Shown here: positions 10,196 through 49,840 of the stretch, piece by piece
How the letters are laid out: every line of letters begins with the position of its first letter
Position numbering within the stretch: the stretch's first letter is position 1
Source: Talaromyces rugulosus
Lineage: Eukaryota > Ascomycota > Eurotiomycetes > Eurotiales > Trichocomaceae
Direction: 5' to 3'
Assembly (NCBI RefSeq): GCF_013368755.1
Contig: NC_049565.1
Location: 3,348,001 to 3,412,000 of the forward strand
DNA length: 64,000 nt
The notes under the pieces: generated by a model
Told to the model about the DNA's origin: nothing
Seen by the model: the letters and a program-made list of their open reading frames with translations, nothing else
Database searches by the model: none
Program-made: the position numbers and the translations under genes

Positions 10196-10686
10196 GCCTG
10201 CAAGTTGATGATCGTGGGGCTGCGGCGTCCCTTGCAGATAAGTTCATGGGGAATCTCATGTCAGGCGTTATCAGTGTAACTCGCGGGTGGATATCCACGT
10301 GACGAGCCATGCCGTATTAGGAATACTCCAAGGTTCAGGCCACGTTTCCAGTTGACCAAGAAACATGGCTCACCCGTAGATCCACTAAGCCAAATACAGG
10401 AGGGAGCGGATCAGCAATGCTTATCTGTAGATTGAGGTTCCAGAGTTTTCACGTGACGTTCGTCTCTTTGTGAAGGGGGATGTTGACGTGTTTGTATCCT
10501 ACCCAATCAATCCCTACAACCTGTAATGCCCCGCTTTGCCCATTCCGACTTCCATCAAAACGTGAGCTGATGAGTTACCAGATCATTATAACTGCACAGC
10601 TTTTTGCTATGTGAAAAGACAATATTCAGTGATATGTCCATTCCATACTGGTACTCCCAAATCTGAAACGAATAAATCATGCAGTG
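10196..10686. other. no gene; 5' flank of NLR 1 and of transposase copy 3
   Basis: Divergent intergenic region of 490 bases with CACGTGA motifs (about 10299 and 10451). No TATA element could be fixed. Confidence 0.4.
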
Positions 10687-14660: not shown

Positions 14661-14950
14661 AGTACATATTGCTATTTACTTCAACTAATTATTAGACAGA
14701 GGAAAAGAAAGCAAAAATAAAAAGATCTGTCCACGGAGAGATTGTCGAACATTTGCGCACTGCTAATGAACATATCGGGTTAATGTCGGACCGACAACTT
14801 CTGGGATTGTAAAGAGTATGTACCAAACATACACTAGTAAGAAGTAAAATACAAGGACTTCCACTAGCTTATAACTAGTGTATCCACAGTGGAGCAAAAT
14901 TAAACAAAGAGAGTGTAAAACAATGAAGGAGGTTTCGAATGTCTCTGTAC
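14661..14950 (-). repeat. dispersed repeat R1 variant, left member of a 280-bp inverted pair
   Basis: The reverse complement matches 21288-21540 closely over its whole length, including AATGTCGGACCGACAACTTC and the R1 end GAAGGAGGTTTCGAATGTCTCTG. The two copies point toward each other and bracket 6.3 kb containing the LINE and a C2H2 gene. Confidence 0.75.
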
Positions 14951-15135
14951 TGTATATCTAATGTACAGTTACAGTATGTAGCCAGCAGCCAAGACAGATT
15001 CCTCCAAAACTCCAGGTTTGTGGGCCCAAGTCCTACCAGGCCCTTCTTTTAAAAAGATATTTGAAAGTAGTTACACCATGAATGAAGCATCATTAGATCA
15101 ACTTCAGAAAAGTAACTCGACCTGAAGCATGTCCC

Positions 15136-19103: not shown

Positions 19104-21287
19104 CAAAATATGAGACAGCTGACATGCAAGGCTTCAGGGGAAAATTAAAAAGAAAAACGCACAGTTCAAGGAAAGCCCGACGAATGAAGGGAAGGGCGAG
19201 AGTATTTTACATACATGTTCTCTACAGGAGCTTTGGGGTATGGCTGTGAAGTATCGGGAGCCGACGTGTCAGTGAAGCCTTTAAAATGTTATATTCTGTG
19301 TGTGTTGAATGTTGCCAACGATTCGAGAATCTGTTTTATCTCTATTTCTAGCTTGGATACGTATGCGGGAGTCGACATTTGCACAATATACAGCTTACGC
19401 GTTGATTGCGTTTGAATGGTTCACAATGTCTTTATTTCAAGTAATATACTCCTTGGATCGACCTGTATGGCTCATTTATTGTTTTAACGACCAATATTAT
19501 TGAAGCGGATTACGAGCTAGCTCAGCACAGATACGTACCATTTCCCGTGCCTCTTGGTCATGTTATAATATTGCCGTGATCTGCGTCCAGCATCCGTCCA
19601 TTTTCACTTCATCAAGACTGATATGTTTGGTACAGTAATACAACTAGTGTTGTATCCCTCTGGGGCTTCCCCTATAAAGTCTCTTCCTACACGGGGCAGC
19701 AGCTTGTCGCAAAATATGTATGGTCACCCAGGTACAGTATTATCATAACTAAGAACAGAAAAAAAAAGGTTGTATATCGATAAATTATTTACCCTACATA
19801 CCCCAAATAGGTATTTGGTCAAACAAGGAGCAATAGCAGCATCGGTAGCCATATTTATTGAATATCCAGTTCAACGTTCAAGTGGCTGGTGTCGAATGTG
19901 GCTCATGTTTCCACCCAATCCGAACGCAGGGTCATTGGTGCGAGTGGACGGGGCTGTTGCATTTCCACCTGTGAGAGGTCTTCCACCTCTCTATATTGCT
20001 GAATCAGACTGCATGGGGGACAGCACCATGATATGATACAATCCGCACAACAGTTTTCCTCCATGCCGCGTCTCTCTTTGATCTTGCGTCTTTGGGCACA
20101 CTGTAGACAGGGAAATAGACCACATGGAAGTAAAATACACCATGTACAACACTAAAATGTAAGTATCACGAAATAGTTTCAAAGAAGTACTTACTGAAAG
20201 ATTGCAGTTTGATACATCATGATTTTGACCTTTTAGTCGCTGTTGTATACGACCAAAAGCGATACATGGTAAGAAGTTACCAAGCAAGCCTAAAGTGTTA
20301 GTAACCATATCATTTTATATAGGCTGAACTAACATATTCTGTCGCAATGACAAGCAAAAAGACTGTGTCTCCAACTCATATCGCAAGATACATGTAAGAT
20401 GCTACGGATTCGTACTTAAAAAAGGCAAAACAAAACAACAAAGTCCAAATGCTCAGTATCGACAAATCCTTTAAATCCCCCAGGAAATCGCCTAAGCAAT
20501 CATTTAAATCTTTTAAAGTAATCACAATATCTTAATAAGTAATCATTTAAACATTTTACTGTAAGCAATAAGTTCTTAATGATGTTTAATAATGACTTTT
20601 AAGTGTTACTAGCTTATGTTTAGTTGTATATAACCTTACACGTAAACGATCATCAATACTGGCCTTTCAGCAGCGATAATTGTTGAACCAATTGCAAGCT
20701 AAGGCGGAAAATCCTTGGAAGTGAGGTACAATTGACGAAGAGGATGGCAGGCTACAGTACATCGATATGTACATAAAGCCGACCAGCTAGATTCGAGATG
20801 ATGCAACTTACGTCCCTGGCTATACAGCTGAGCAATGTGCATTGGTAGGAATAAAATAAAACACTTAGAAATAAAGCTAGAACAAGCTCAGCACGACCAA
20901 ATCCTCTCGTTGCAGTCCGTCTTGGCATCCATTACGGCGTCAGCTGGCACTCATCGTCTTTTCGTTTCTGAAAGACGAGTATCCAAGTATTTAGTCAGGT
21001 TTCTCCTTCCGATCGCTATCTAGTATTGTAATACACGGCTTCGACCCATCAACATGAACGTCCTAAGAGGCCGATTGATCATAGGATTCCCCAAGGTTTC
21101 AAGTTGGCGTGTATAGTTATTATCCATGTTGACGTGAGGGACAATGCTTCGATGTAATGCTACAGTATAGATGAGAAATACTGTATGGCCGGACGCTGTG
21201 ACTGTGGCCAAAAAAAAACAAGAAAAAAAAGAAAAAGAAGAAGAAGGAAAAAAAAACCTTTCCGCATGATCAGGAAAAAGATAACTA
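19104..21287. other. 2.2 kb without a supported gene
   Basis: Short ORFs only. An AT-rich stretch with repeated TAATCATTTAAA words occupies 20490-20640, and A/G-runs lie at 21210-21260. Possibly decayed repeat DNA. Confidence 0.5.
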
Positions 21288-21540
21288 CAGAGACATTCGA
21301 AACCTCCTTCAGTGTTTTACACTCTCTTTGTTTAATTTTGCTCCACTGTGGATACACTAGTTATAAGTTAGTAGAAGCCCTTGTATTTTACTTCTTACTA
21401 GTGTATGTTTGGTACATACTCTTTACAATCCCAGAAGTTGTCGGTCCGACATTAACCCGATATGTTATTGGCAGCGGGCAAATGTTCAACGACGAAGAAT
21501 CTGTCTAATACTTAGTTGAAGTAAACATCAATATGGACTA
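21288..21540 (+). repeat. dispersed repeat R1 variant, right member of the inverted pair
   Basis: It begins CAGAGACATTCGAAACCTCC and matches the reverse complement of 14661-14950 through GTTGTCGGTCCGACATTAAC and TTAGTTGAAGTAAACAT. It lies about 100 bases downstream of the NLR 2 stop codon (minus strand). Confidence 0.75.
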
Positions 21541-21643: not shown

Positions 21644-24600
21644 CTATTTGAAGCCCAGGACGCGTTTCACGGCCTCTCTTCTCTGGCCTTTGACAGGCTT
21701 TGGAATTTCATTATGCTTCGTTTTTTGCCATTCGGTAAGAGCATTATTGGAAGATAAGGTATCGGGGTGACTGGTTCCTATCTTTTTGGCTCGGAGTCCC
21801 GCACATTCTCTCATCAATTGATAGGCTTCGGCCTGTTTGTCCACCGAATTCCACGTATAGGCAAGATTATGCATGCTGGTCAGAGTATCGGGATGCTCAG
21901 CGCCCAGTACTGTCTTGGATGTCTCCATGACTTGCACTTCTAGCTTCTCGGCTTCATCCCATCGGCCTTGGTTCCGGTAGGTTGAGGCAAGATTATGCAT
22001 GCTGGTCAGAGTATCGGGATGCTCAGCGCCCAGTACTGTCTTGGATGTCTCCATGACTTGCACTTCTAGCTTCTCGGCTTCATCCCATCGGCCTTGGTTC
22101 CAGTAGGTTGATGCGAGATTTGCCATACTGGTCAGAGTTTCGGGATGCTCGGCGCCTAGTACTGTCTTGGATGTCTCTATAACTTGCACTTCTAGCTTCT
22201 CGGCTTCATCCCATCGGCCCTGGTTCCAGTAGGTTGATGCGAGATTTGCCATACTGGTCAGAGTATCGGGATGCTTAGCGCCCAGTACTGTCTTTCTTGT
22301 CTCTATGACTTGCATACCTAGCTTTTCAGCTTCAATCCATCGGCCCTGGTTCCAGTAGGTTGATGCGAGATTTGCCATGCTGGTCAGAGTGGAGGGATGC
22401 TCGGCGCCTAGTACTGTCTTCCTTGTCTCGATAACTTGCACACCTAGCTTCTCGGCTTCAATCCATCGGCCTTGGTTCCGGTAGGTTGATGCGAGATTTG
22501 CCATGCTGGTCAGAGTGTCGGGATGCTCGGCGCCTAGTACTGTCTTCCTTGTCTCCATGACTTGCATACCTAGCTTTTCAGCTTCAATCCATCGGCCCTG
22601 GTTCCAGTAGGTTAATGCGAGATTTGCCATGCTGGTCAGAGTATCGGGATGCTCAGCGCCCAGTACTGTCTTGGATGTTTCTATAACTTGCACACCTAGC
22701 TTCTCAGCTTCATCCCATCGACCCTGGTTCCGGAAGGTTGATGCGAGATTTGCCATACTGGTCAGAGTGTCGGGATGCTCAGCGCCCAGTACTGTCTTCC
22801 TTGTCTCCATGACTTGCACACCTAGCTTCTCAGCTTCATCCCATCGACCCTGGTTCCGGAAGGTTAATGCTAGATTATGCATGCTGGCCAGAGTGGAAGG
22901 ATCGTGAGGGCCAAATTTCTCCTGATTGATCTCCATCAGCTTCGTATAAAATGCCTCCGCTTCTTGATATCTTCCATCGCTGGCGAGGCAACCTGCAATC
23001 CTTTTAATTAAATCGAGGTAATTATTTTCTTGTACAACAAATTCATTTTCATGCAACAGCGTTAAAGCATGGGGAAGGTATTCCCGCCAAAGTTCTCGAT
23101 TGGTGTGGTGATCGTCTGGAAATACATCCTGTAGATGCTCAGCTACCCGTTGGATCCAGTGGCTAAACGATGCTTTCTTTCGAAGCCAGTTTCGGGTGGC
23201 AATATACACAAGTCGGTGCATACCTATATGTCTCTCTTGGCCATTCGTAAACGAGTACGCATTTAGAAGTCCTAAAGCATCGACTTTCTGCTTTCTGGAT
23301 GTTGGTTGAGGAAGGAGGGACTGGGGGATGTTTCGCGGGTCAATACAGGCGATGAAAGAGAGATAGTCGGCCGCTAATGGATCTTGATGTTGAATCTGCC
23401 GAAAGGATATCAACCAGCAGGTGATCACAGGATTTTGGATATCGTTATAGCGTCCTGGATCTTTGAAGTCTTCGCTGAGAAGCTCGACAGCATCTTGTTC
23501 CTGCTCTTGAAGAAGTGCAAGATAGGTCGACAAATCAATCCCATTCTGGATTATATATGCTGATGCCTGCGTTATTGCCAAGGGAAGAAAGGCTAGTTGT
23601 TCAAGAAGGGCAGTAATCGTGGTAGTATCTCTTAACAAGTCTTTCTGTGCCAATGTCTTGTCTAGGATTTCTTTTGCAATTTCTTTGTCCACATCTGGAA
23701 TGGAAACAACGTTAAATGATGCCAGCTTCATGGCGAGTTTTCGGTTTCGGGTGGTGAACAAGATACGGCCTTGTTCACTCTCAGGGAGATAGTCCTCAAG
23801 AGATGGAGCTGCATCACTAGCGGCGAACCATATTTCTGCATCATCTGCATTATCAAAAACCAGAAGCCACTTTCCCGCGCGCTCAGAGCTGAGGTATATC
23901 TTAACCTGTTCTTTAACCTCGGCCGGATTCACGTCATGAAGTCCGAGTTTCTGTGCAATGTGCAGGTACATCTGCTCAATCATGGCATGGCTGGTACAAG
24001 GAATCCACATGATTGAGCACTCCTTATCTCGGTCCCGTATGCGGTATGCTAACTCAAGGGCCACTTGAGTTTTGCCGACCCCCCCTAATCCAGTGATTGC
24101 GATCCTTCTGGGCCCATCTTGCATTGTAATTAATTCTTCCAGTTTTGTGATTTCATCCTCACGACCGACAAATTTGGGATTTCTTGCGAGAGAGACCACC
24201 CAATGTCGCTTTTTCTGGGTCTTCATGAGGTCCGTGTCCGTACAGTTTATGGGTATAACTGATAGCAGCAGCTTTGCGTAGGAAGCCGCTGTCAACGCTG
24301 CGTATCCTTGCCACTGTTTCTGTTTATGGGAATCGCAATAGTCGCATATCCCCCGGATTACTAGCGTTGGAAGCTCATCCATGATCCCTGCTGCCTCCAT
24401 CTCAAAGCAGAGGATCCCATGCTGTTGTGCTAGACGGTCTCGTGTTTTGGAGTCCTTCATAACCTGATTTCCCGAAGCAATCAATCCATAATGGATATAA
24501 GGTGTCTTGGTGCCACGAGGTTGCCGTTTGATTAACTGTTCTTTATCGCACTTTTCACATGTATCTTCCCCTGCGGTATGGTGATAAGAAGAATCAAATA

Positions 24601-25180
24601 AGAAGTCCGTATACTCTTCTGGAGGTGAAAATCGTCCTTGCATGTTAGGGTTCTGTGCCAGGGCTTCTTCCACTATTTTAGAAAAAGCGTCATCGCCCTC
24701 ACTCATTCGTTTTGCCTCCATTTGAGCTATATTTGTTAAAAGGGCCTGTGGTGGTTTGTTCAAGGTGCCTGTTGACTCGAATTGGCCATCCTGAATTGCC
24801 TTGCCATAATCATACTGGGTTACTCCACTGTGCTTTCCAACCGGTTTGCTGACCACGACATCTCCCAGTCGAATGTCATTGTTTTTGCCTGGAACCCCTC
24901 CTCCAATTCCGACCATCAGTCCATATTGAAGCCGAGGAAATGTGAAACGCATGCGAGATACCACAGCCGCGGCAGATACTGTTCCGTATACTCCAGTTGG
25001 TAGGCAAGCAATCACAATATAGTGGCCGTTTAATTCACCAAGGTGGTAGGCATTCGAATCAGTGTGGGGTATAGGCAGCGGACTGTGGGTTCTGTCCAGC
25101 ATACTGCGGGCCGCTGCTGCTTCTAGCGGTAGGGCGCATATCCATGCGATTGAGTAGTTGTCGCGCGTCACAGTCGTCAT
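21644..25180 (-). CDS. NLR 2: PNP-NB-ARC-TPR receptor (single exon)
   Basis: The 1178-aa intronless protein has a PNP_UDP_1-like domain at residues 1-315 (IAWICALPLEAAAA, MVGIGGGVPG, ASGNQVMKDS, CFEMEAAGIMD). NB-ARC has its P-loop GLGGVGKTQVAL at about 365, KWLLVFDNADD and GRILFTTRNRK. From residue 738 there are about ten TPR units of 42 residues; the central eight are almost identical (GRWDEAEKLxVQVxET followed by KTVLGAEHPDTLTSM). The proposed role is a cytosolic STAND receptor whose TPRs detect a ligand and whose phosphorylase-like domain is the output. NLRs 1 and 3 have introns at the PNP/NB-ARC border, but this gene has none, which points to an independent lineage or intron loss. Promoter side: about 2 kb of repeat-containing DNA lies between it and divergent NLR 3. 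Confidence 0.92.
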   Translation of the reverse strand: MTTVTRDNYSIAWICALPLEAAAARSMLDRTHSPLPIPHTDSNAYHLGELNGHYIVIACLPTGVYGTVSAAAVVSRMRFTFPRLQYGLMVGIGGGVPGKNNDIRLGDVVVSKPVGKHSGVTQYDYGKAIQDGQFESTGTLNKPPQALLTNIAQMEAKRMSEGDDAFSKIVEEALAQNPNMQGRFSPPEEYTDFLFDSSYHHTAGEDTCEKCDKEQLIKRQPRGTKTPYIHYGLIASGNQVMKDSKTRDRLAQQHGILCFEMEAAGIMDELPTLVIRGICDYCDSHKQKQWQGYAALTAASYAKLLLSVIPINCTDTDLMKTQKKRHWVVSLARNPKFVGREDEITKLEELITMQDGPRRIAITGLGGVGKTQVALELAYRIRDRDKECSIMWIPCTSHAMIEQMYLHIAQKLGLHDVNPAEVKEQVKIYLSSERAGKWLLVFDNADDAEIWFAASDAAPSLEDYLPESEQGRILFTTRNRKLAMKLASFNVVSIPDVDKEIAKEILDKTLAQKDLLRDTTTITALLEQLAFLPLAITQASAYIIQNGIDLSTYLALLQEQEQDAVELLSEDFKDPGRYNDIQNPVITCWLISFRQIQHQDPLAADYLSFIACIDPRNIPQSLLPQPTSRKQKVDALGLLNAYSFTNGQERHIGMHRLVYIATRNWLRKKASFSHWIQRVAEHLQDVFPDDHHTNRELWREYLPHALTLLHENEFVVQENNYLDLIKRIAGCLASDGRYQEAEAFYTKLMEINQEKFGPHDPSTLASMHNLALTFRNQGRWDEAEKLGVQVMETRKTVLGAEHPDTLTSMANLASTFRNQGRWDEAEKLGVQVIETSKTVLGAEHPDTLTSMANLALTYWNQGRWIEAEKLGMQVMETRKTVLGAEHPDTLTSMANLASTYRNQGRWIEAEKLGVQVIETRKTVLGAEHPSTLTSMANLASTYWNQGRWIEAEKLGMQVIETRKTVLGAKHPDTLTSMANLASTYWNQGRWDEAEKLEVQVIETSKTVLGAEHPETLTSMANLASTYWNQGRWDEAEKLEVQVMETSKTVLGAEHPDTLTSMHNLASTYRNQGRWDEAEKLEVQVMETSKTVLGAEHPDTLTSMHNLAYTWNSVDKQAEAYQLMRECAGLRAKKIGTSHPDTLSSNNALTEWQKTKHNEIPKPVKGQRREAVKRVLGFK

Positions 25181-25649
25181 TGTGGGTCATAATAGAGAAA
25201 TAGATCAAACAGACTTAGTATAGATGTATAGATGGCACGATGAAATATGAAGCCTTTCTGCGTGGTGACAAGAGAATGAAAAATACTGTTCATTAGCTGA
25301 GGGAGGGGTAAGAGCTTCCTGCGAATTCCCGCAAGGCTGACAACTCAACGTATGGTCGCATAGCCAATCTGCATGCTGGCGGCAACAGCAATCCATACTG
25401 GGGTACACCAAGATATTCTGTTACTGTCTGCATCTTTATTCTGAACTCGTCATCCTGCTCCCCAAAGCTTTCTGAGTCCGAGTTTAGTCAGTAGTCGGAT
25501 CAGGTGTTACTATTCTCCGATTGCTACCGAGCCTGGCGCGAGTCAGCAAAACTCCCAACATAACCGTGACGACGGGTGTAAGGTATTGTAACGAGGTAAA
25601 TATTTCAAGCTGCTTACAGTCATGAAAGTTGGCTACCTAGCCCAATACA

Positions 25650-26880: not shown

Positions 26881-27177
26881 CCGTTTAGCTTCGGTATATT
26901 TCCATTAACTAACTAGCTCTGTTCCTGTAGTAGTACCGACGGTTCTTCGAATAAGATTCTTAAGTTTGCGCTCAGGCCCAGCTCGGACACAGCGAGGGAC
27001 AAGGCTACGCGATGCTCAACAAAGCACAAGGCTCCGCGCAACTTCCAGGCTGAACCGCAACCTCCAACAACGAAATCGTGTTTTCTTGACTGCATATTTC
27101 CGTTTATCACCTTCATATAGATTCTCTACGTAGCATGAGCTGTTGCCTCTACTGGTCGTTGACTATGCAACTCGACG

Positions 27178-30100
27178 ATGAGCCGACCGCGTCTTCTACC
27201 AGCAACTTACACCGTGGCATGGGTGTCTGCCCTGCCTCTCGAGTCGGCAGCGGCCGCAGAGATGCTAGACGAAGAACACTGTGATCCTCGAAGCCGCGGT
27301 AGCAATACGGACCAATATATTTTCGGCCGGATAGGGAACCACAACATCGTGATGACCTGTCTACCGTCGGGCCACATGGGAAACAACTCCGCCGCCGACG
27401 TCGCAGGGCGGTTGACAACTGCATTCCCGTCAATCAAGTTCGCTCTGATGGTGGGAATCGGTGGTGGCGTCCCAACAGCGAGTGCAGATATAAGGCTCGG
27501 GGACGTTGTGATCGGCCACCCGCACTCGCAGTATGGTGGCGTGGTCCAGTATGACTTCGGTAAGACTGGTCCAAACAGACAAGTACACAGAACAGGATTC
27601 ACCAACGCACCGCCGAAGGTGCTCCTCAATGCCATTGCAAAGCTGCGAGAAAACCACTACCGTCGTCTGAACGACATCTCCGCACATCTCTCTGTTTTCG
27701 ATCGGTTGGCACAATTTAGTCGAAACACAACAGGCCCTGATGTTCTCTTTCAAGCGACATACAAGCACAATGGGGGAGACAACTGCGAGTGCTGCAACAA
27801 GCAAATGATCATCGAACGGCCTAAGCGAGAGTCCACAGAGGTGGTAATTCATTATGGCACCATTGCGTCAGGGAACCAGGTAATGAAGGATGGCGTGACC
27901 AGGGACAGGATCAGTGCTGAGCTCGGTGAAGTGTTGTGCTTTGAGATGGAGGGGGCCGGTGTGGCTGGTGCATTTCCATCCGCGGTGATTCGTGGCATCT
28001 GTGACTATGCCGACTCGCACAAGAATAAGAGCTGGCAGCCATATGCTGCCGCGACAGCGGCGGCAGTTGCGAAAGAATTGCTGCGGGTGGTCCCGGCCGA
28101 AGAGATCGTCAAGACTAACATATCTGAGAGAGTAAGCGGTAGGTGTGCTTGTTGTGTGATGACAGGGTTGTATTGCTAATAAATACATGTTAGATGCCGA
28201 AGAGTACCGAGTCTCATTCAGTCTGAAAGGCATTCCACGAGGTAGATTTGTGGATAGGCCGGAAGAAATGAGACGTTTAGAAAAAGTTCTTATACCACAT
28301 AGACAGGCTCAATCAGAAGAATATCGGCAGCAAGTAGTAGTGCTGCATGGCCTAGGCGGAATAGGCAAGACGCAGCTTGCCGCCGAGTGTGCCAGGAAGC
28401 ACCAGGCTGCGTTCACGTCGGTATTTTGGTTGGACGGTAGTAGCGAAGATAGCCTGCAGCAAAGCATTGCTGATTGTGCCGGTCGTATTCCAGAAGGGCA
28501 GATTCCTGAGACAAGTAGGAAATACTCGTCTAGCGCACACGGTGACCTTAATGCTGTTATCGGTGATTTCATGGAGTGGCTGAGCAGAACAGAGAACAAG
28601 CGCTGGCTGATTATATTTGATAATGTGGACCGCGACTACCAGCAAGAGACTGATATCGACGCTTATAATGTCAGCAACTACATACCCGAGGTTGATCAGG
28701 GATCGATTCTGATTACCACGCGGCTTGCGAACCTCCAACAGCTGGGCGAACCTTTGCAGCTGGGGACTGTTGATATGAGCGAAGCACATGCTATCTTTCG
28801 AAAGTGGTATAACCAAGACTTTGGTAAGGCAGTTCTATGTACATATCTATATCTAGTAGTTGCATGGTGTGACTAACCGGGACATACAGATCTGAATGAC
28901 AGCGACGAGCTGCTTCAACTGCTTGATGGGCTACCTCTAGCGCTAGCCCAAGCGGCGGCCTATATGAGCGAGACGGGGACGAGCTTTCGTACGTACACCA
29001 GGCTATACAAAGAGCAATGGAAGGATCTGATGGAGATTGAGAACACGGCACCGCTGAGAAGCTATGGGGCCCGCAGCATAAACACGACGTGGACGGTCTC
29101 CTATAATGCGATACGAGCCCAGAATGAGGGGGCAGCAAATCTTCTTTTGCTATGGGCCCACCTTGACCATAAAACACTGCCGTTCTGGATTCTTCAAGCT
29201 GGAGCACGTGGTTCTAGTGCCTTGGCTAAAGACCTGTCGGCATGGCTGGGAGACGCCGCCGATGACGAAGTGAAATTCTTGCAAGTTGTTCGACTTCTAC
29301 GGAGCTATTGTTTGATTGACAGCCTACATGGGAGTTCGACCAATAGTACTCATCCTGTAGTGCACCAGTGGGCATTTCACATACAAGATGAAGATCAACG
29401 AGCAGAGCTATCACGACTAGCCGTTCTCATAATTGGATATGCTTTTCCAGACGAGTACGCCACCGAATATCACCAGAAGCAGCGGCAGTTATTTCCACAT
29501 GCAGAGTCTTGGATAGAAAGAATGGAGCGAGAAATAGTGAATACCATGGCAGAAGTGAATGTGGAGGTATTATACGCGCTGCATATGATGGGTATGCTAT
29601 TATCGGATCGAGGGAACCTAGGAAAGGCAGAGAAGATGTACCAGCGGGCGCTGGAAGGCTACGAGAAGGCCTGGGGCCTTGACCATACATCGACTCTCGA
29701 AACTGTCAATAATCTGGCTGTTCTATACGCCGACCAGGGGAAGCTGGCAGATGCGGAGAAGATGTACCAGCGGGCGCTGGAAGGCAAGGAGAAGGCCTGG
29801 GGCCCTGACCATACATCGACACTTGACACTGTCAATAACCTGGGAAATCTCTACAAAAACCAGGGGAAGCTGGCAGATGCGGAGAAGATGTACCAGCGGG
29901 CGCTGGAAGGCAAGGAGAAGGCCTGGGGCCTTGACCATATATTGACACTTAACACCGTCAATAATCTGGCTGTTCTATACGCCGGCCAGGGGAAGCTGGC
30001 AGATGCGGAGAAGATGTACCAGCGGGCGCTGGAAGGCTACGAGAAGGCCTGGGGCCCTGACCATACATCGACACTTGATACTGTCAATAACCTGGGCAAT

Positions 30101-30517
30101 CTCTACAAAAACCAGGGGAAGCTGGCAGATGCGGAGAAGATGTACCAGCGGGCGCTGGAAGGATACGAGGATGCCCTCGGGCCCGATTATATTCAATCGT
30201 ACGTTCCTGCGCTTCATAACGCCTATAGCTATGGTATGCTCTTCGAGGATCAAGGCCGCCTAAGTAATGCAAAATTAATGTACACAAAAGCACTTGCAGG
30301 GTATAAGCTTGTCTTTGGAACTGATGATCGCTGGTACCGGGCAGTCCAGGAGCGGCTTAAGAACCTGAAGACCTCTCAATGTTCTCGCTCGACTTCGCCG
30401 ACAAGCCGCGCTAGTCGGCTTACTCGCCATGTAGCAGACATTTTACCTGCGGCAGAATCAGCAGCTTCCAAATCATCAAAACGACTTAGGCTTCTCAGGA
30501 AGCTCAAGTTGACATAG
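27178..30517 (+). CDS. NLR 3: PNP-NB-ARC-TPR receptor (3 exons)
   Basis: Exons 27178-28138, 28194-28823 and 28890-30517 give 1072 aa. The donors GTAGGT and GTAAGG and acceptors TTAG and ACAG keep phase 1 at both junctions, and the first intron carries a CTAAT branch point. The PNP_UDP_1-like domain occupies residues 1-315 (VAWVSALPLESAAA, MVGIGGGVPT, ASGNQVMKDGVTRD, CFEMEGAGVAG). NB-ARC has GLGGIGKTQLA at about 373, RWLIIFDNVDRD and GSILITTR. The TPR array from residue 774 has six units, four of them nearly identical (GKLADAEKMYQRALEG, then DHTSTLDTVNNL). Codon use is GC-richer than in NLR 2. The C-terminus is serine/arginine/lysine-rich. The role is as for the other NLRs: cytosolic sensor with a phosphorylase-like output domain. 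Confidence 0.85.
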
Positions 30518-33625: not shown

Positions 33626-33863
33626 CAACCCCTGTAGCCAAGATTGCGCTAGACCATATTTGTGAATTAATCCGAGCCCCTGTCTCAGGTTTTGGTAATG
33701 AAACGGTACGGGAAATTTTATGACTCAGAATAGCAGATTCTGTGTATTCGTAATACAGACGTTATCTCACGTGAGTTAGCTTCCACCTGCGGGAGATCCT
33801 CCCGGAGATCCTTGTAACCTTGATCATCCATCCTACTTGATGGAGAACTATTCCTAAAGCCAA

Positions 33864-34865
33864 ATGGCTCCACCACTAGCACCATCAACCCGAGAGTTTA
33901 TACAAGATATGATTATGAGTAATGAACTCACTACGTCCCAGATTGCTGGAGCTGCCGAATGCGATCCAAGTACAATCAGAAGACATCGCTCCAATTTACG
34001 CCTATATGGTAGCGTGACATCGCCTCCAAATAACGGCGGGCGCCCACGCCGTCTTACACCAGTAATGGTCAAGGCGCTTTGTGACCACCTTCTTGAAAAG
34101 CCTCAGTTATACCTAGATGAGATGGCAATTTTTGTATGGGACGAATTTCGCGTACAAGTGAAGAAAGACATTATTAGTCGTGCTCTAAAACGTGCGGGCT
34201 GGTCCAAAAAGACAACCAAACAGAAAGCTAGCCAAAGAAATCTTGATTTACGGGACACATATATGCACTTCATATCTGATTTTCGATCATATCACCTAGT
34301 ATATGTGGATGAATCGGGATGTGATAAGAGGGTTGGCTTTAGGAGAACAGGGTGGTCACCTCTGGGCATAGCGCCATCTCAGGTAACCAAATTTCGTCGT
34401 GATCAACGTTACCAAATCCTGCCAGCATATGCTCAGGATGGAGTTATCATGTCACGTGTCTTTAAAGGCTCCACTGACGCCTCATTCTTCGAAGACTTTA
34501 TTGAAGAGCTACTTCATCATTGTGGTAAATGGCCAGAGCCAAAGTCTGTTCTTGTTATGGACAATGCTTCTTTTCACCATTCTGAAAAAATTGAAGCGAT
34601 GTGTTCAAAAGCTGGTGTCAAGCTTGTATATTTACCGCCATACTCTCCAGATTTAAATCCAATTGAGGAGTTCTTTGCTGAGTTGAAAGCCTTTATACGA
34701 CGTCACTGGCAATCGTATGAGGATAACCCTGATCAAGGATTTAATAACTTTCTTGGGTGGTGTGTTGAAAAAGTGGGTGCAAGGAAGCAGAGTGCAAAGG
34801 GACATTTTCGAAATGCGGGCATTGACATAGAACAACAGCCAAGTTCTGTGGTTGAGGGCAGATAG
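33864..34865 (+). CDS. Tc1/mariner (IS630-type) transposase, copy 4
   Basis: The 333-aa intact ORF has an N-terminal helix-turn-helix (ELTTSQIAGAAECDPSTIRR) and a complete DD34E catalytic set in VYVDESG, VMDNASFH and NPIEEFF. Protein sequence is close to copy 1, while the upstream flank resembles the deleted copy 2. With no stops, it could supply transposase in trans to related non-autonomous copies. Its upstream flank contains CACGTGAG and GGAGATCCTCCCGGAGATCC, a short palindromic region that may be part of a terminal repeat. Confidence 0.9.
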   Translation: MAPPLAPSTREFIQDMIMSNELTTSQIAGAAECDPSTIRRHRSNLRLYGSVTSPPNNGGRPRRLTPVMVKALCDHLLEKPQLYLDEMAIFVWDEFRVQVKKDIISRALKRAGWSKKTTKQKASQRNLDLRDTYMHFISDFRSYHLVYVDESGCDKRVGFRRTGWSPLGIAPSQVTKFRRDQRYQILPAYAQDGVIMSRVFKGSTDASFFEDFIEELLHHCGKWPEPKSVLVMDNASFHHSEKIEAMCSKAGVKLVYLPPYSPDLNPIEEFFAELKAFIRRHWQSYEDNPDQGFNNFLGWCVEKVGARKQSAKGHFRNAGIDIEQQPSSVVEGR

Positions 34866-35123
34866 ATGCCACAGTATATGCAGCGATAATTTCAGTACGC
34901 TACCAGCTTGTGCTTTTCTAAGCTTTTTTTGTTTCTATTTTTGGTTACAATAGAGTGATTGGAGGGTTTGGTGATTGGGCAGCCTTGCTTTTGCTTTTAT
35001 CCTGGGATACGTATAGTACAAAGCGGGGTAATCCGGACTGAATATTCATTGTGTTAAGACCGATTCCACAGTCCAAAACATTAAGTTAAATATTGTAGGT
35101 CAACTTGATATATAACGACCCAG

Positions 35124-36193
35124 ATGCCGAGGTGTGAGTTCTGTAGCCGGTCGTTCGGCAGCCAGGAAGCTCTCGATCAACATACCCAGAACTCGCCTGC
35201 TCATGCACCATCGTACGACTGCGAGCTCTGCAACCGATCATTCGGCAGCCAGGAAGCTCTCGATCAACATACCCAGAACTCGCCTGCTCATGCACCATCG
35301 TACGACTGCGAGCTCTGCAACCGATCATTCGGCAGCCAGGAAGCTCTCGATCAACATACCCAGAACTCGCCTGCTCATGCACCATCGTACGACTGCGAGC
35401 TCTGCAACCGATCATTCGGCAGCCAGGAAGCTCTCAATCAACATACCCAGAACTCGCCTGCTCATGCACCATCGTACGACTGCGAGCTCTGCAACCGATC
35501 ATTCAGCACCCAGGAAGCTCTCGATCAACATACCCAGAACTCGCCTGCTCATGCACCATCGTACGACTGCGATCTCTGCAACCGATCATTCAGCACCCAG
35601 GAAGCTCTCGATCAACATACCCAGGATTCGCCTGCACATTTCCAACTGCCCGAAACTCCGTTAAACACATTTTTCCAGTCATTTTCGGATTTTACCTTTG
35701 ACCCAGATATTCCACCAAATGAATCGTATTTAGCTTTGCAAAGATTCTATGGCTGGCATAGAGGCGACGAGGAATCTAACCAGGCTTGGAACAATTTCCA
35801 GAGAGCTCTGATTGAAGAGTTCAAGCTCTGGTTCGGGGCAGAGGACGACCTTGGCTCTTGGCATTCCCTTTGCCGCGCACTAAGGATTGAACCGTTACCA
35901 CGAACTTGTCTAGATTGTGAGAAGGTAATTCATGGTGTCTATACTTTGCCACAGCTACGAATATTAACATCATATGATAGGCTGTTAGAGGACTGTATGT
36001 TAATATCGTTGACCTGATTGCTTGGGCTCGCAATGGGGGAGGTGAGGATCAGGTTAGGCTCTTCCATAGTTTGGAGGAGCTGCGTGAATATACAAAAAGG
36101 ACGCGCAAAATCTTCCGCAATAATCTTGATGAAACAGGAAATAGCAATGTAGTCCTGAGGCATTTGCTTCGATTCATCTTTCAGGGAAATTGA
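35124..36193 (+). CDS. six-finger C2H2 protein with near-identical tandem fingers (2 exons)
   Basis: Exons 35124-35934 and 35991-36193 give 337 aa; the 56-nt intron (GTGTCT..TTAGAG) restores a frame VNIVDLIAWAR that would otherwise be lost. Six zinc fingers of 29 residues occupy residues 1-175, each C-x2-C-x12-H-x6-H, with linkers HAPSYD. Only a few positions change between fingers (GS versus ST before QEAL; D versus N). The C-terminal domain (FYGWHRGDEESNQAW, GSWHSLCRALRIEPLP, CLDCEK, VNIVDLIAWAR, RTRKIFRNNLDE) is of a kind seen with such fingers in other fungi, to my recollection. It may bind nucleic acid or protein; no target is evident. The DNA repeats of 87 bp invite unequal exchange, changing finger number. 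Confidence 0.75.
35133..35640 (+). repeat. 87-bp tandem repeats encoding C2H2 fingers
   Basis: About six units, the inner ones nearly identical in DNA (CGATCATTCGGCAGCCAGGA recurs). The last two units share the variant CAGCACC, so the array has a small internal history. Confidence 0.85.
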
Positions 36194-42419: not shown

Positions 42420-42970
42420 TGATTTACAAATACACTCGGAGGCAAAACCGGTGTCGGGGTCTTACACTCTTTCAATTGTTTCGCAAAGTCTAGGCCAAGA
42501 ACGGCTAAACCACTTGTAGACCAAGTCCGAAACGACTCTGGTTCGCGGTAATACGTACGGTATTGTACCAGACAGATATACACAAAGTTTTATATTTAGG
42601 TTCTGACTGGAAAACTATCTAAACCCTTTGGCAAATGTTCTTTATTAGGCGTTTCTAGATTAACACAAGCCCAAACTTAATAACTCAGGGGGTTGACTAT
42701 CTCCAAGAGCACTAGATTGGCATATTATATAGTATTATCGGCCGCTGATACATTGACATCTAACTTCTCCATTGGCCAACTAGTTAATGTCGTTGAAGAC
42801 GATAAAGTATAGGGATGTTCGGCGCCTAAAATCCTCCTCTGTAGCTGTACACAATACTTCATTAAGTTAAGGACTTCCACGCCGCGACCCTGCTGTTTCC
42901 ACGTGAGGGCGAGGTTGTTCATACTAGTCAGCGTGGAAGGATGGAGATCATTCAGTGTTAGCTTCAACAC
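42420..42970 (-). pseudogene. inverted fragment of an NLR 3' end (TPR tail plus 3' flank)
   Basis: Minus-strand codons from 42970 read STLTSMNNLALTWKQQGRG and TLSSSTTLTSW, matching the last TPR and tail of NLR 4. Similarity continues through the 3' flank to about 42420, mirrored at 47650-48180, including the CAAAACCGGTGTCGGG block. At the C-terminus this fragment reads 11 residues beyond NLR 4, because NLR 4 lacks two bases near 47841 that are present here. No NB-ARC is left, so it is a relic of an inverted duplication. Confidence 0.85.
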
Positions 42971-42974
42971 AAGG

Positions 42975-43190
42975 AGTGGAAGGGGAGAGTTGATGCTGAC
43001 AAGCTGAGAAGGATGATAAACAGGGTCATTTCTTGGTGCTCTATTAAATTGTCATAGCCCACAAATAAGCACCTAAAGTTGGGTTGGACAGAGGAAGGGA
43101 GGGTAACTACTCTGTATTGACACACCAGTCACATCTGCCAGGCATGGAACCTTCCAGGGAACATGATCTCAAATACTGAGGCCGTACAAG
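42975..43190 (+). repeat. dispersed repeat R3, copy 2
   Basis: It matches 41060-41290 in the same orientation (GACAAGCTGAGAAGGATGAT, CACATCTGCCA, GGAACCTTCCA). It lies between the NLR fragment and the HeLo-like pseudogene. Confidence 0.5.
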
Positions 43191-43372: not shown

Positions 43373-44276
43373 TTAGTTGTTTTTTCCATTTGCATTCCAA
43401 CTGATAGTACCCGTGCTGTAACCAACTTGAATGCCACTATTGTTACCTAAAAATTACTACGCTATATGTGTTGCCACTACCTTGACCTAATAATTTAGAG
43501 CGTAATTGCGATGACACTACTCCAGAGGCAGCTTGGTCAGCCTCTAGGAAGCGTGACTGCTCTTCAATCTCTCTCATTGCGAGAGTTCGTTGAGCGCCAC
43601 CATCTTCTTCGCCTCTCCTCCTGAAGCTCTTCCTTGCGCTTCAGGGTTTCAGTTTGCTGTTTCTTTGTAAGATCAATATGCTCCTGGATAGCTTTCCCCA
43701 GGTTTTATAATTGGCTATTCAACTCCCGATCCGTCTTAGAGGCGAATTCTGAGCGAAACTGAATAAGTCTTCAGAGTATTAGTACAGTATATTAGGAAGA
43801 TATTTAGTAATGGTTCCTTACAGCTGGGTGCTTTCGATAGCTAACTGAACGATAATCTGGCACGATTGAATTTGTAGTCTGAATGTACGGATTTTTTCTT
43901 TGTTCCATACGCCGACCGAAAGGCGATCTCTAAGAGAAAGCTTTGTACTGCTGGAATGTTTTGTCCATTACTGAAGTTTCTTGCTAAAATCAGCACACAC
44001 CTGACCACATTTGTTCACAACATCCGCAACACCAGTCTTCTCAAGATCTGATTTGGCCTCGGCACAAGTCCCGCTATCGGAAATTTTAATTTCTTCGAGA
44101 GCAGCTAGCGGACGCTGGATAGCTTCCAGGGTTGAAGCGATATCTTGGACGACTTCTTTAGCTTCTGCGAGGCTACCAATCAAATCACGAAGGTGATTGA
44201 TACTGAAAATAGCGGACTCGGTAATTCTAAGGGCACCGATAGCGATGCTGAACGGATCCATGTGTTCTGGACTCAT
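43373..44276 (-). pseudogene. HeLo-like (HELLP-type) cell-death gene with C-terminal amyloid motif, broken
   Basis: From ATG 44276 the frame gives a HeLo-like N-terminal domain (MDPFSIAIGALRITESAIF, VVQDIASTLEAIQRPL; PF17111 type), a helical membrane-active domain in the HELLP family. After FSKKLQ a TAA stop interrupts (about 43972), yet the same frame continues with the family-like SLRDRLSVGVWNKEKIRTF. A probable intron follows (GTAAGG..CTGAAG), then a second TAA near 43709 and a frameshift near 43610. The last part (43444-43397) encodes NNSGIQVGYSTG, ending a few residues later. This motif resembles the RHIM-like PP amyloid motif and matches the N-terminus of the adjacent, divergently transcribed NLR 4. 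In working systems the NLR's amyloid templates the executor's motif and the HeLo-like domain damages the membrane. Two stops and at least two frame breaks make this copy non-functional. Confidence 0.75.
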
Positions 44277-44643
44277 GTGATCAAATAAAAGATGCTTAAG
44301 ACCTTACCGTAAAGCAGGAGGACGTCGGATTGACGGGTACCAGTAGAAAACAGGTCAGTCTATTGTTTTGGGGGGGGTAGGGCCTGTAAATTTATGCGGC
44401 ACGGAAGTTGGGCACTTCCGCATCAAGAGCAGCCAACGGTAGCCCGGAAGATGCAAGTGCGGCGCTGGGCCATCGTGCCTAACCATCCCGCTGGCCACCA
44501 TATTTCGAAGTGTCATTGGCAGAACTATAAATAGAACACTTGTGTCCATTTCATTTAAGAGGGAGATCATCCCGATCCGAGATGCCGCTGCGTTTGGCTT
44601 GAATTCGAGATAAAACAAGACTTTAAAATGATCACAAGTCGCT
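44277..44643. promoter_or_regulatory. divergent promoter region between HeLo-like pseudogene and NLR 4
   Basis: The 367 bases between the two start codons must carry both promoters. A G-run lies at 44370-44378. No unambiguous TATA box or known operator could be assigned. A minus-strand ORF at 44355-44618 lies entirely inside and has no coding features. Confidence 0.4.
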
Positions 44644-47600
44644 ATGGCTCATCCTGTGTATCATGCTACCTTCTTAGATTCGGATAACCGAGGAGTACAA
44701 GTTGGCTATAACGCTGGGAACGTCGAGACCCATCATCATTTTCACGCAGGCAAGTCACTGGTTTCTCCAGTAGAGGGCCCCTAGAAGAACTTGCTGATAG
44801 CATCCTGGTTGCGCAGAGCGTCCAGAGACTCCTCCCAATCCATTACTATCGATCTGTTTCCCCCGCGACCGGGACTTTGTCGATCGTGGGAGAGTCCTGA
44901 ATCAGCTCCACCAAAGATGTGCTACACCAGGTTCCAAGACTGCGCTGGTCGGCTTCGGTGGTGTTGGGTATGAAAACGGTCCATGCTCTTGACCAGTCGT
45001 GCTAACTTGAGATGAAGAAAATCACAGCTTGCGATTGAATATGCGTACCGAGCCCACGAGCAGTCCCCCGAAACATGGGTTTTTTGGGCCCATGCCAGTA
45101 ATGCCACCCGATTTGAACAGAGCTACCAGGAAATTGCAGATACCGTCAAGCTGTTTGGGCGGCGGGATCCCCAGGCCAACATCTTTAAGCTTGTATATAA
45201 CTGGCTGCGAGATGCCAAGAATGGGAAGTGGGTGATAATACTTGACAACGTCGATGATGCTGAATTTCTTGTCAACGTCCACCATGATAGTCAGGGTCAT
45301 ACAAGTCAACCACTGCGAGAGTATCTCCCACAAAGCCAGAATGGGTCCATTCTAATAACATCACGGAGCAAGGAGGCTGCGTTGAAGCTGGTCGAACAGC
45401 GTGATATCATCGCCATTGAACCAATGGATAAGGCCCAAGCGCTAGAATTATTTGAGAAGAAGCTGGAGAAACAGGATAAGATGCATGGTATTACCGAGCT
45501 TGCAGCCGCGCTAGAGTTTATTCCGCTTGCGATTGTCCAAGCCGCGGCATATATTTCTGACCCAGATCGGGGTTGTTCAGTGCGACAGTACCTTGATGAG
45601 TTCCAGAGAAGCGATTACAAGAAGATGAGTCTCTTGGATCACGACGGAGGACAGCTTCGTCGAGATTGGGAGACTAAGAACTGCGTTCTCATGACTTGGC
45701 AGATCTCATTTGACCGTATCCGTCAAACACGGCGATCCGCTGCTGATTTGCTGTCGCTGATGAGTTTCTTCGACCGCCAAGGGATACCCGAGGCCCTCCT
45801 TCAAAATCGAAGCAGACAGGAAAACGCTGAGCAGAGTGATCGCGACGATGACGAAGGCAGTGAATTACAGTCTAGCGTAACCAATGAGTTCCAAAATGAT
45901 GTTCTAGTGCTGCGAAGGTACATGTTTATCTCGATCAGTGTGGATAGAACAACGTTCGAAATGCACAACCTGGTGCAGCTAGCGACGCGAATGTGGCTTG
46001 AAGCGAATGGGGAGCTGGAAAAGTGGAAACGGCAGTATATTCGGAATCTAAATTTGGAATTTCCCACTGGAAAATATGAGAATTGGGCACAATGCCAAGT
46101 GCTTTTCCCGCATGCAAAGTCTGCAGCCACGCATCAACCGCAGGAACGTGACTCACTGCTAGAGTGGGCCTCGCTGATGTATAAAGCGGCGTGGTATGAC
46201 TGGAGAAAAGGGAATAGAGCTGAGGGAGAGAAGCTGTCAGTTATAGCATTGAAAGCTCGGACAAAGTTACTGGGTCAGGAACATAAAGAAACGCTGAGTA
46301 GTATAGAAATGACAGGGCTAATATACTCGCTTAAGGGCCGGTGGAAAGAGGCCGAAGAGCTGTTTGTGCAGGTGATGGAGACAAGAAAGAGAGTGCTAGG
46401 TGCAGAGCATTCAGACACGCTGTCCAGCATGAACAACCTGGCATCGATATACTGGAGACAAGGACGATGGAAAGAGGCTGAAGAGCTGTTTGTGCAAGTG
46501 ATGGAGACAAGTTTGAAGATGCAGGGTGCAGAGCATCTTTCTACGCTGACCAGCATAAACAACCTAGCATCAACATACCGGAATCAAGGCCGATGGAAAG
46601 AGGCCGAAGAGCTGGAAGTACAAGTGATTGAGACGAGAAAGACAGTGCTGGGTGCAGAGCATCCAGACACGCTAGCCAGCATGGCTAACCTGGCGTCGAC
46701 GTACTGGAGACAAGGACGATGGAAAGAGGCCGAAGAGCTGTTTGTGCAAGTAACAGAGACAAGTTTAAAGGTGCTGGGTGCAGAGCATCCAGACACACTG
46801 GCCAGCATGGCCAACCTGGCATCGACGTACCGGAATCAAGGCCGATGGAAAGAGGCCGAAGAGCTGTTTGTGCAAGTGATTGAGACAAGAAAGAGGGTGC
46901 TAGGTACAGAGCATCCAGACACACTGGCCAGCATGACCAACCTGGCATCAACGTACCAGAATCAAGGCCGATGGAAAGAGGCTAAAGAGCTGTTTGTGCA
47001 AGTGATAGAGACAAGTTTAAAGATGCAGGGTGCAGAACATCCATCTACACTGACCAGCATGGCCAACCTGGCATCGACGTACTGGAGACAAGGACGATGG
47101 AAGGAGGCCGAAGAACTGTTTGTTCAAGTAACAGAGACAAGTTTAAAGGTGCTGGGTGCAGAGCATCCAGACACACTGGCCAGCATGGCCAGCCTGGCAT
47201 CAATATACCAGGAGCAAGGCCAATGGAAAGAGGCCGAAGAGCTATTTGTGCAAGTGATAGAGACAAGTTTAAAGGTGCTGGATGCAGAGCATCCAGACAA
47301 ACTGGCCAGCATGAACAACCTGGCATCAACATACCAGAATCAAGGCCGATGGAAAGAGGCTAAAGAGCTGTTTGTACAAGTGATGGAGACAAGAAAAAGA
47401 GTGCTGGGTGCAGAGCATCCTAACACGTTAACTAGCATGAACAACCTAGCATCAATATACCAGAATCAAGGCCGATGGAAGGAGGCTGAAGAGTTGTTTA
47501 TGCAAGTGATGGAGACAAGAAAGAGAGTGCTGAATGCAGAACATCCAGACACACTGACCAGCATGGCTAACCTGGCATCGATGTACTGGAATCAAGACCG

Positions 47601-47856
47601 ATGGAAAGAGGCCGAAGAGCTGGAGGTGCAAGTGATAGAGATGAGAAAGACAGTGCTAGGTGCAGAGCATCCTGACACACTGACTAGCATGAATAACTTA
47701 TCCTTCACGTGGAAACAGCAGGGCCGCGGCGTGGAAGCCCTTAACTTAATGAAGGATTGTGTACGGCTACAGAGGAAGATTTTGGGCGTTGATCACCCTA
47801 ATACCTTATCATCCTCTGCGACATTGACTAGTTGGTCTGGAGAAGTTGGATGTTAA
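44644..47856 (+). CDS. NLR 4: amyloid-motif NB-ARC-TPR receptor (PNT1-like; 3 exons)
   Basis: Exons 44644-44749, 44817-44967 and 45018-47856 give 1031 aa. Intron 1 is a GC..AG intron (GCAAGT..GCAG), and intron 2 splits the P-loop codon exactly as in NLR 1. Residues 12-33 hold DNRGVQVGYNAGNVETHHHF, containing the RHIM core VQVG inside an N-x-G-x-Q-x-G-x-N pattern, the layout of the PP amyloid motif. NB-ARC follows: RDFVDRG entry, P-loop GFGGVGKS at about 80, KWVIILDNVDD at about 158 and GSILITSRS. Eleven near-identical TPR units of 42 residues plus two diverged ones fill residues 480-1025. The proposed role is a sensor that, on ligand binding, exposes an amyloid seed for a partner executor. 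The neighbouring HeLo-like pseudogene carries the matching motif. The tail is shortened by a two-base indel relative to the fragment at 42420. Confidence 0.8.
46318..47717 (+). repeat. eleven tandem 126-bp TPR-coding units (NLR 4)
   Basis: Units encode GRWKEAEELFVQVxET plus (R/S)(K/L)KxLGAEHPDTLxSMxNLAS. Two alternating types are visible (ETRKRVLG and ETSLKxxG), suggesting higher-order duplication of unit pairs. Confidence 0.85.
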
Positions 47857-49840
47857 TATATCAGTGGCTGATAATACTATATAACGTACGAATCTAAAGC
47901 TCTTGGAGATAGTCAACCCTCTGAGCTATTAAGTTTGGGATTGTGTTAATCTGGAAAGCCTAATGAAGAGCATTTGCCAAAGAAATTTAGATACAGTAGT
48001 TTCCCAGTCTGTTGGAATCTAAATACAAAACTTGTGTATATCTGTCTGGTACAGTACCATACGTCATACCGCGGACCAGGCTATGTGGGACTTAGTCTAA
48101 AAATAGTTTAGCCCTTCTTGGCGTAAAGTTTGGGAAACATGTAAAAACCCGACACTGGTTTTGCCTCCGAGTGTATGCTACAGTAATATTTTGCTCAATT
48201 TCATCTCATAAATTTTAGAAATTTGTAATCGCTTATTTTAGTTCTCCTTGGTCTAAAATTGCTTACTGCCGTAATCACGGAATGGTTTTCATCGGTGATG
48301 CACCAATTGATGACAGAAAAAATCCAACTTTCCCACTAAGTTAACTAGCATTACATACATATTAACTACCCGAATTATTTAAATATATGGCAGAGGGAAA
48401 GCTTACGGTACGGTAATAGTTATTCACCTGGCAAATACATGCTTCCTTTCTGATGACGTCGAACAGTATGTCTAGCAACAATGCAGACACCAGTCCGTCT
48501 CGGTCTCTCAGCGAATACCAAAAATCCCTTGACAAGTCATGGTACACGCTTCTCTATCAGATTAAACATGCTAAAGGTTGAAACTCGTGGTCTAAAAACT
48601 GGTTCTCGTCTAATACATTACAGAGATGGATAAACAGCTTAAAGATAAAGCAACTCAAACATATACTTCGACCGAAAAGCCTACAAGCATTCATGGTCCC
48701 TCATGAGGGAGAGTTGCGACCGTCAAAATTTTCCACGGGCAGCAAGCACTGTGTTTCATTTACAGGGCAGTCATGGGCATGTACACACACACACACAATT
48801 TATTAACGCCCGGCGGCTAAACCGAAAGGGCAACTATCACTGATCTACTACGTAAAATTACTCACCTAATCCTGACTAGATCTTGCCTAGGATTTAATTA
48901 CGGTTAACTTCCTACAGTATACTATCATTTAATCCTAATTTTATTAAAATCTAATCTTCTCTGTGATTCTATTGTGGGGTAAACTTGCCATCTGTTTTGA
49001 GTTTTGTCACACTTGTACACTATTACTTGTAAGTACAATACTGAAATATATACTGAACATTATTGTTCCGCTTCCAGACTAGATGTAGTTTAGCTCAGTT
49101 TCACATTAGGGTTCCGGAAATAAAAAGAGAGCAATCGCGGTGACACCAGTTTCCGGAAACACTGTATGAGGCTACTTTTTATCACGTCTGCCAACCAGTC
49201 AACGGAAAAAGTAACGCAGCATAGTTGGTGTCAAAAAAGAAACGACTTGTCGAGAGCAAAAAAAGCTGAAAAGTGTGGCGTTCTGAGAGTCGTTGCGCTT
49301 TGAGTCTGTGCGGTCAATAGTATTCAAGTGATGAAACTATTACGCGGGGCTGTCTGTCTAGTAATCACATCGGCCACTATTCTGTTTCCAGACTTGTTTT
49401 ATCAAGGATTGATTGATCTATTCAAAGTGAATGTATTACATGTCTGCGTCACAACAAATGTATAATTATACACATCGAGGCTATGTAGATCTATTCTATT
49501 CATGGGGTTGCTTTGAAGCATTAACGCTTTGATGAATCGAAAAAAGGCAATGAATAGCCTCAAACTTTTTACAGGTAAAAACAGCTACGGTATAGGAAAT
49601 CATTGTATTAAAACTATATGTTTCTGTCAGCAATGTAAGTGAGTTTTATTAGATGAATATATACTTATGACAAGTTCAACCATACGAAGCGGCCGGGGAA
49701 TGATGACATGAGATAAGCAGGCTATCAGTAGTGCACAGGTCACAACCCTGTACTATTGAACAGTTACTTAAGCCGTCAAGTCCCCGCTGGGGTTTGCAAT
49801 TCAGATACATGTATATGAAATCTCATAACTCATACGAACC
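47857..49840. other. 2 kb without a supported gene
   Basis: The first 320 bases mirror 42420-42740 (3' flank duplicated with the NLR tail). A short (AC)n run is at 48783-48797. The rest is AT-rich with no coding signal. Confidence 0.5.

Follow-up and report, generated by a model that had tools for sequence, protein, structure and literature searches.

We analysed a 64,000-nt stretch of the Talaromyces rugulosus W13939 genome (Eurotiales, Trichocomaceae; C5:3348001-3412000), hereafter the window, together with genome-wide searches covering 35.76 Mb in six contigs. Two adjacent genes in the window diverge from a 382-bp region that separates their start codons (44262-44643). The plus-strand gene (44644-47856), here called NLR4, encodes a putative NOD-like receptor (NLR) of 1031 aa with an N-terminal PP motif followed by NB-ARC, DUF7779 and an array of tetratricopeptide repeats (TPRs), as judged by a splice model, Pfam, and alignment to its relative P0121. 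The minus-strand gene (43373-44261) encodes a HeLo-like (PF17111) protein, the putative executor, which carries a PP motif at its C-terminus; Pfam, comparison with the relative P0001, and the reading frames and stops identify it as a pseudogene. This is very probably an amyloid signalling locus of the PNT1/HELLP type, based on the PP motif, with an intact sensor and a pseudogenised executor. The system type itself is already known and what is new here is a further locus of it; the less usual feature is that an intact sensor stands beside a dead executor.

The three predicted exons of NLR4 (44644-44749, 44817-44967, and 45018-47856) combine into a frame with no internal stops. Intron 1 (44750-44816, plus strand, 67 nt) is of the GC-AG type, with its GC donor in a CAG/GCAAGT context, and intron 2 (44968-45017, plus strand), predicted by the splice model as GT-AG, lies inside the P-loop (GFGGVG/KSQ). 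A first-pass annotation of this DNA had proposed the short first exon and the GC-AG intron, and comparison with T. proteolyticus P0121 bears out both: the intron 1 junction yields HHHFHA-ERPETPP in NLR4 and HHHYPA-ERPETPP in P0121, so residues common to the two proteins are retained on both flanks. The proteins are 76.7% identical over 1077 aligned columns (full length), including 32 of the first 36 residues, and the predicted splicing is thus supported by this relative. At the equivalent site, a paralogous NLR at C5:874 kb has an apparent GT donor, read by eye. Pfam reports PF17046 (the PP motif model), NB-ARC (31.8 bits), DUF7779, and twelve TPR_10 stretches, and NLR4 therefore has the N-terminal PF17046 motif, the NB-ARC domain, and the TPR repeats by which a PNT1-type PP NLR is recognized. 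An array of similar 126-bp (42-aa) TPR units occupies 46210-47769 (plus strand), with 11 in-register copies and 11 signature positions at 42-residue spacing; central windows are 77-85% identical to the reference copy and terminal ones 67-70% (300-nt windows, 126-bp steps).

The executor gene starts at 44261 with a protein opening MDPFSI, and its N-terminus matches PF17111 (36.6 bits; cut-off 27.2), a domain termed HeLo-like in PMC9815663. An intron at about 43769-43821, positioned by eye, is apparently intact, and each of the two exons has one in-frame stop (43968-43970 and 43705-43707). The frame changes near 43614 and again between 43444 and 43461, immediately before the motif, which is followed by a stop codon ending at 43373. 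With two stops and two frame shifts, there is no single open frame joining the HeLo-like domain to the PP motif, in agreement with the broken frame that had been noted earlier, and the predicted product of the first frame ends after 97 residues without the motif. These four disabling lesions are the reason for calling the gene a pseudogene. All of its pieces are still in order, however, and a read-through translation (X at breaks) is 69% identical to the intact P0001 of Aspergillus sclerotialis, with 74 of the first 97 residues identical.

Among the matches listed, the closest executor relatives are open and about 280 aa long (A. sclerotialis, Penicillium, T. pinophilus), and 8 of the 10 best have both PF17111 and PF17046 annotated. 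Intact relatives with the same C-terminal motif are found in Aspergillus, Penicillium, and Talaromyces; those fetched are 278-297 aa long and end within about 30 residues of the motif. A GxQ/KxG motif is present at the C-terminus in 18 of 120 listed HeLo-like relatives, many of which are short fragments, and at greater distance relatives without the motif are common among the matches listed. In the predicted fold of P0001, helices lie within residues 15-242, and the C-terminal residues 246-281 have low confidence (predicted local distance difference test under 50), which fits the expectation for a free prion-forming tail. Automatic annotation had been expected to miss both genes. This does not apply to the relatives, as P0121 and the 8 executor relatives carry PF17046, but it possibly does to this locus: no T. 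rugulosus-named entry appears among the listed matches (best 120 of 125 and best 120 of 1101, some unnamed), so the locus itself may be unannotated.

The executor DNA is single copy, as a genome DNA search returned its own locus only. Of 15 genome matches to PF17111, only the one in the window coincides with a PF17046 match. The motif matrix described below detected no motif in the stretches fetched for the 14 others, each reaching about 1.5 kb past the match at either end; an intron-split motif could escape there. A second copy was rejected on these grounds. Close to another HeLo-like match, the sequence GFQVG (L047:4341-4469) had no Pfam match, was not reported by the matrix, and was set aside as chance. 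That the decay was caused by repeat-induced point mutation (RIP) is not supported, with a composite index of -0.35 for the pseudogene, similar to the -0.46 of the window.

The PP (RHIM-like) motif of NLR4, NRGVQVGYNAGNV, lies at 44686-44724 (plus strand) and that of the executor, NSGIQVGYSTGTI, at 43403-43441 (minus strand). Both had been recognized in the first-pass annotation, which placed the upper end of the second at 43439, two bases short. A hidden Markov model search with PF17046 (gathering cut-off 23.2 bits) accepted both, with 28.5 bits for NLR4 and 25.4 bits for the executor piece, which is outside the frame of the HeLo-like domain; the latter is not among the eight genome-wide PF17046 matches at E 0.001. 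PF17046 is described in PMC12261475 as the PP motif model, misnamed SesB, and is used as such in PMC8086366. The pattern that had been proposed for the pair fits only these two sites in the six-frame window and none in 100 Markov-generated windows, and a looser pattern gave 2 sites vs. a mean of 0.01 per Markov window (n = 100). We also built matrices from 99 motifs chosen by a GxQxG pattern from 240 proteins. In the window, the matrix from 82 NLR motifs gives the executor motif its second-highest score (25.7, vs. 13.7 for the best of 20 Markov windows), and that from 17 HeLo-like motifs does the same for the NLR4 motif (28.2, vs. 13.9 for the best Markov score). As a caveat, the NLR training set includes the P0121 motif, which matches that of NLR4 exactly. 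The motifs of either side alone thus pick out the other, well above the Markov controls.

After the motif core, both NLR4 and its dead neighbor have Y. Among GxQxG-detected motifs in 120 HeLo-like proteins, H or Y follows the core in 17 of 17 C-terminal motifs, while Goodbye-HeLo C-termini have NN in 107 of 114; the Y/H class makes up 15 of 82 NLR motifs. These counts favor a strict motif code in which Y/H marks HeLo-like partners, but A. navahoensis tells against it: the NLR P0124 (HN) and the Goodbye-HeLo protein P0291 (NN) are apparently on one 16-kb contig there. In Zopfia, P0176 and P0359, each on a contig of 1231975, are both HN. The PP motif is absent from the database models of P0006 (T. 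stipitatus, HeLo-like) and of the NLRs P0126 (T. stipitatus) and P0128 (T. pinophilus), a possible sign of repeated motif loss among executors and sensors alike.

Across the genome, eleven PP motifs were detected, in four sensors, six open executors, and the dead executor. Eight came from the PF17046 genome search (five executors and three sensors, NLR4 included) and the remainder from the motif matrix, which found no further PP site in the 53 loci fetched. A cluster at C1 2.12 Mb (L039:3487-6964 and L040:1077-2819; C1 2.121-2.129 Mb) has a hydrolase-like/PP gene, a Goodbye-HeLo/PP gene, and a PP NLR with NACHT and WD40. The one at C4 2.66 Mb (L041:1740-6716; C4 2.658-2.663 Mb) combines the same two executor kinds with a PP NLR that has an ankyrin open reading frame (ORF) downstream; its Goodbye-HeLo motif was detected by the matrix, with PF17046 unreported for the gene. 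The hydrolase-like label was given by eye, Pfam having reported PF17046 alone for those ORFs. Proteins combining Goodbye, HeLo, and PF17046 recur in other fungi (e.g., A. nidulans P0241, P0243, and P0250), in contrast to PMC9815663, which describes amyloid motifs as a common feature of HeLo and HeLo-like domains but not of Goodbye-like ones.

At C5 0.87 Mb (C5:873005), a PNP_UDP/PP gene scores 26.6 bits with PF17046 in the genome search and 22.7 in the ORF search (cut-off 23.2), and the NB-ARC-TPR NLR there has a PP motif (23.4 bits) and a frame shift relative to NLR4. This open executor with a frame-shifted divergent sensor (L042:3988-7473; C5 0.873 Mb) is the reverse of the NLR4 pair. A further PNP_UDP gene with a C-terminal PP motif lies at C5:3255941 (L043:3915-5024; C5 3.256 Mb), 137 kb from NLR4; none of 39 genome matches to NLR4-like sequence falls within 30 kb of it, and it is apparently an unpartnered executor.

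When motifs are scored against each other, NLR4 reaches 46 with its own dead neighbor and 34-38 with the six other executors. In general, the highest score of a sensor is with an executor from the same locus. The exception is the C4 sensor, which scores slightly higher with a C1 executor and with the lone PNP_UDP, and the C5 0.87 Mb sensor ties with the lone PNP_UDP. For the sigma motif, PMC3321046 describes such extensions co-evolving within a cluster.

In agreement with the first-pass annotation, PF17046 on both sides, PF17111, the cross-trained matrices, and the lesions all point to a two-gene system with an intact sensor and a pseudogenised executor. Three results weigh against this identification. 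Permuting sensors over the four loci left the real order tied for best of 24, which is only suggestive; a profile of the motif alignment had 0 matches to PDB sequences up to E 10; and Foldseek returned no match at E ≤ 0.001 for the predicted HeLo-like model of P0001, with MLKL and HET-S absent among the fold matches listed. Because no solved structure was matched by motif sequence, the RHIM link rests on published work.

In the ancestor, binding of a ligand by the TPR array would have caused NLR4 to oligomerise through NB-ARC, and its clustered N-terminal PP motifs would have folded into an amyloid seed. That seed could then have served as template for the matching C-terminal motif of the HeLo-like protein encoded by the divergent gene. 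The helical domain of this protein would in turn attack the membrane and bring about death of the cell or compartment. What the locus itself shows is a divergent pair of genes with their domains and a motif in common, and an executor that has been lost; amyloid templating and cell death we infer from the Podospora anserina and Chaetomium globosum systems. In PP loci that have been characterized, the motif of the NLR acts as template for that of the executor, and killing is done by the HeLo-like protein (PMC7885112, PMC5485727). With only a pseudogene left on the executor side, signaling through this pair is not possible in the strain analysed, and NLR4 has apparently survived the partner next to it.

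Our confidence applies to the identity of the locus, and the present role of NLR4 lies outside it. The sensor may be recently orphaned or kept for another partner, with a role in incompatibility as a further option. All four lesions are in the executor and none in the 3.7-fold longer frame of NLR4. Under equal neutral decay, the probability that the three lesions after the first would all fall in the executor is p = 0.0098 (0.0021 for all four), a calculation that assumes equal neutral rates and independence of lesions that are few in number. The skew suggests that NLR4 remained under constraint while the executor decayed. It argues against a recent death of the executor with NLR4 now functionless and decay yet to set in, which is nonetheless quite possible, if short of probable, given how much of the executor remains alignable in order to P0001. 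Decay of the partner of a lost module is known from P. anserina, where het-s strains carry nwd2 as a pseudogene (PMC4344463), and birth-and-death evolution of the pathway is mentioned in PMC9815663. The same skew favors retention of NLR4 by selection through action in trans on other PP-motif executors of the genome, which we consider somewhat unlikely. The genome has six open executors with the motif, of three kinds with two members each (hydrolase-like SBP relatives, Goodbye-HeLo, and PNP_UDP); five are among the eight PF17046 matches, and the sixth, the C4 Goodbye-HeLo, was detected by matrix only. Unpartnered ones seem to exist, judging from the lone gene at C5:3255941 and from C5:873005 beside its frame-shifted NLR. 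Signaling between non-adjacent genes is suspected in PMC9815663, and partial cross-seeding of PP and RHIM amyloids is reported in PMC7885112. Motif class points the other way, as the Y-class motif of NLR4 scores lower with all six than with the dead executor, and the H/Y and NN classes largely separate HeLo-like from Goodbye-HeLo proteins. Since action in trans concerns the present role, it is compatible with a PNT1/HELLP-type origin of the pair.

Other explanations carry much less weight. That NLR4 is a mirror image of [Het-s] is a long shot: loss of the executor would let the sensor PP motif persist safely as a prion, and strains lacking the executor could carry a self-propagating NLR4 state that would kill fusion cells formed with intact-executor strains. 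If true, the locus would be a polymorphism for heterokaryon incompatibility that arose when the executor, and not the sensor, became a pseudogene, and an origin of allorecognition by pseudogenisation is proposed in PMC10197012. It is very improbable that the pair is intact and the lesions are assembly or sequencing errors; two of the four are frame changes, a common type of assembly error, but the other two are in-frame stops, and the repeat-rich 3.1-kb frame of NLR4 is without any break. We give almost no credence to the minus-strand gene being the former N-terminal part of an all-in-one NLR with its TPR tail at 42725-43051. Although this TPR fragment is directly downstream of the executor on the same strand, it resembles the inverted 3′ end of NLR4 (81%), no NB-ARC ORF was seen between the two, and the fetched motif-bearing relatives are free-standing.

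At 42430-42943 (minus strand), the last TPR and 3′ flank of an NLR survive as a relic in inverted orientation, 81% identical to 47668-48176; this inverted repeat flanks the executor relic and NLR4, and is perhaps the remains of a second NLR. The composite RIP index of the TPR relic is slightly positive (0.28). Elsewhere in the window, further genes of NLR type, with PNP_UDP ORFs and arrays of 126-bp repeats, occur at 10633-14286, 21647-25186, and 27163-30514, with PNP_UDP, NB-ARC, and TPR demonstrated in one frame for 21647-25186 only. Three DDE_3 transposase ORFs (1719-2720, 9194-10243, and 33858-34862) lie among the NLR genes. A reverse transcriptase/RNase H ORF (15097-17640) is located between inverted repeats of 181 nt that are 98% complementary (14769-14949 and 21286-21466), and a C2H2 zinc-finger ORF (35109-36014) has near-identical 87-bp repeats, the central copies being 94-97% identical.

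The identification of this locus provides a further PP/RHIM-like amyloid pathway, set in a Talaromyces genome whose eleven PP motifs can be surveyed together. It makes two ideas testable, namely that PP sensors act on non-adjacent executors and that executor loss seeds an incompatibility system.

Among known systems (fungal NLRs are the subject of PMC4986451), the locus most resembles hellp-pnt1 of P. anserina, which likewise comprises two adjacent genes, a HeLo-like/PP executor and a PP/NB-ARC/TPR NLR with a short N-terminal motif (PMC7885112). It differs in its executor pseudogene and the GC donor of the first NLR intron. The first-pass annotation had compared it to the hellp-sbp-pnt1 cluster of C. 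globosum (PMC5485727, PMC7885112), and the motif and the two protein kinds are indeed the same; however, that cluster has three genes and no adjacent SBP was seen by NLR4, which makes P. anserina the closer match. SBP-like/PP genes (hydrolases by eye) are instead found in the two other T. rugulosus clusters, together with Goodbye-HeLo rather than HeLo-like executors. The direct executor relatives are the Eurotiales PF17111 + PF17046 proteins P0001-P0003, P0005, and P0007-P0010; unlike the executor in the window, these proteins (P0001 69% to the executor read-through) and the NLR4 relative P0121 (77%) are open. The nwd2/het-S pair of P. anserina, as described in PMC4344463, is also a divergent NLR/executor pair (0.6 kb apart) in which some strains carry one of the two genes as a pseudogene; its motif is HET-s rather than PP. 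In that pair it is the NLR that has become a pseudogene, whereas the executor persists as a prion; the T. rugulosus locus is the reverse and a naturally occurring example of the sensor surviving the executor.

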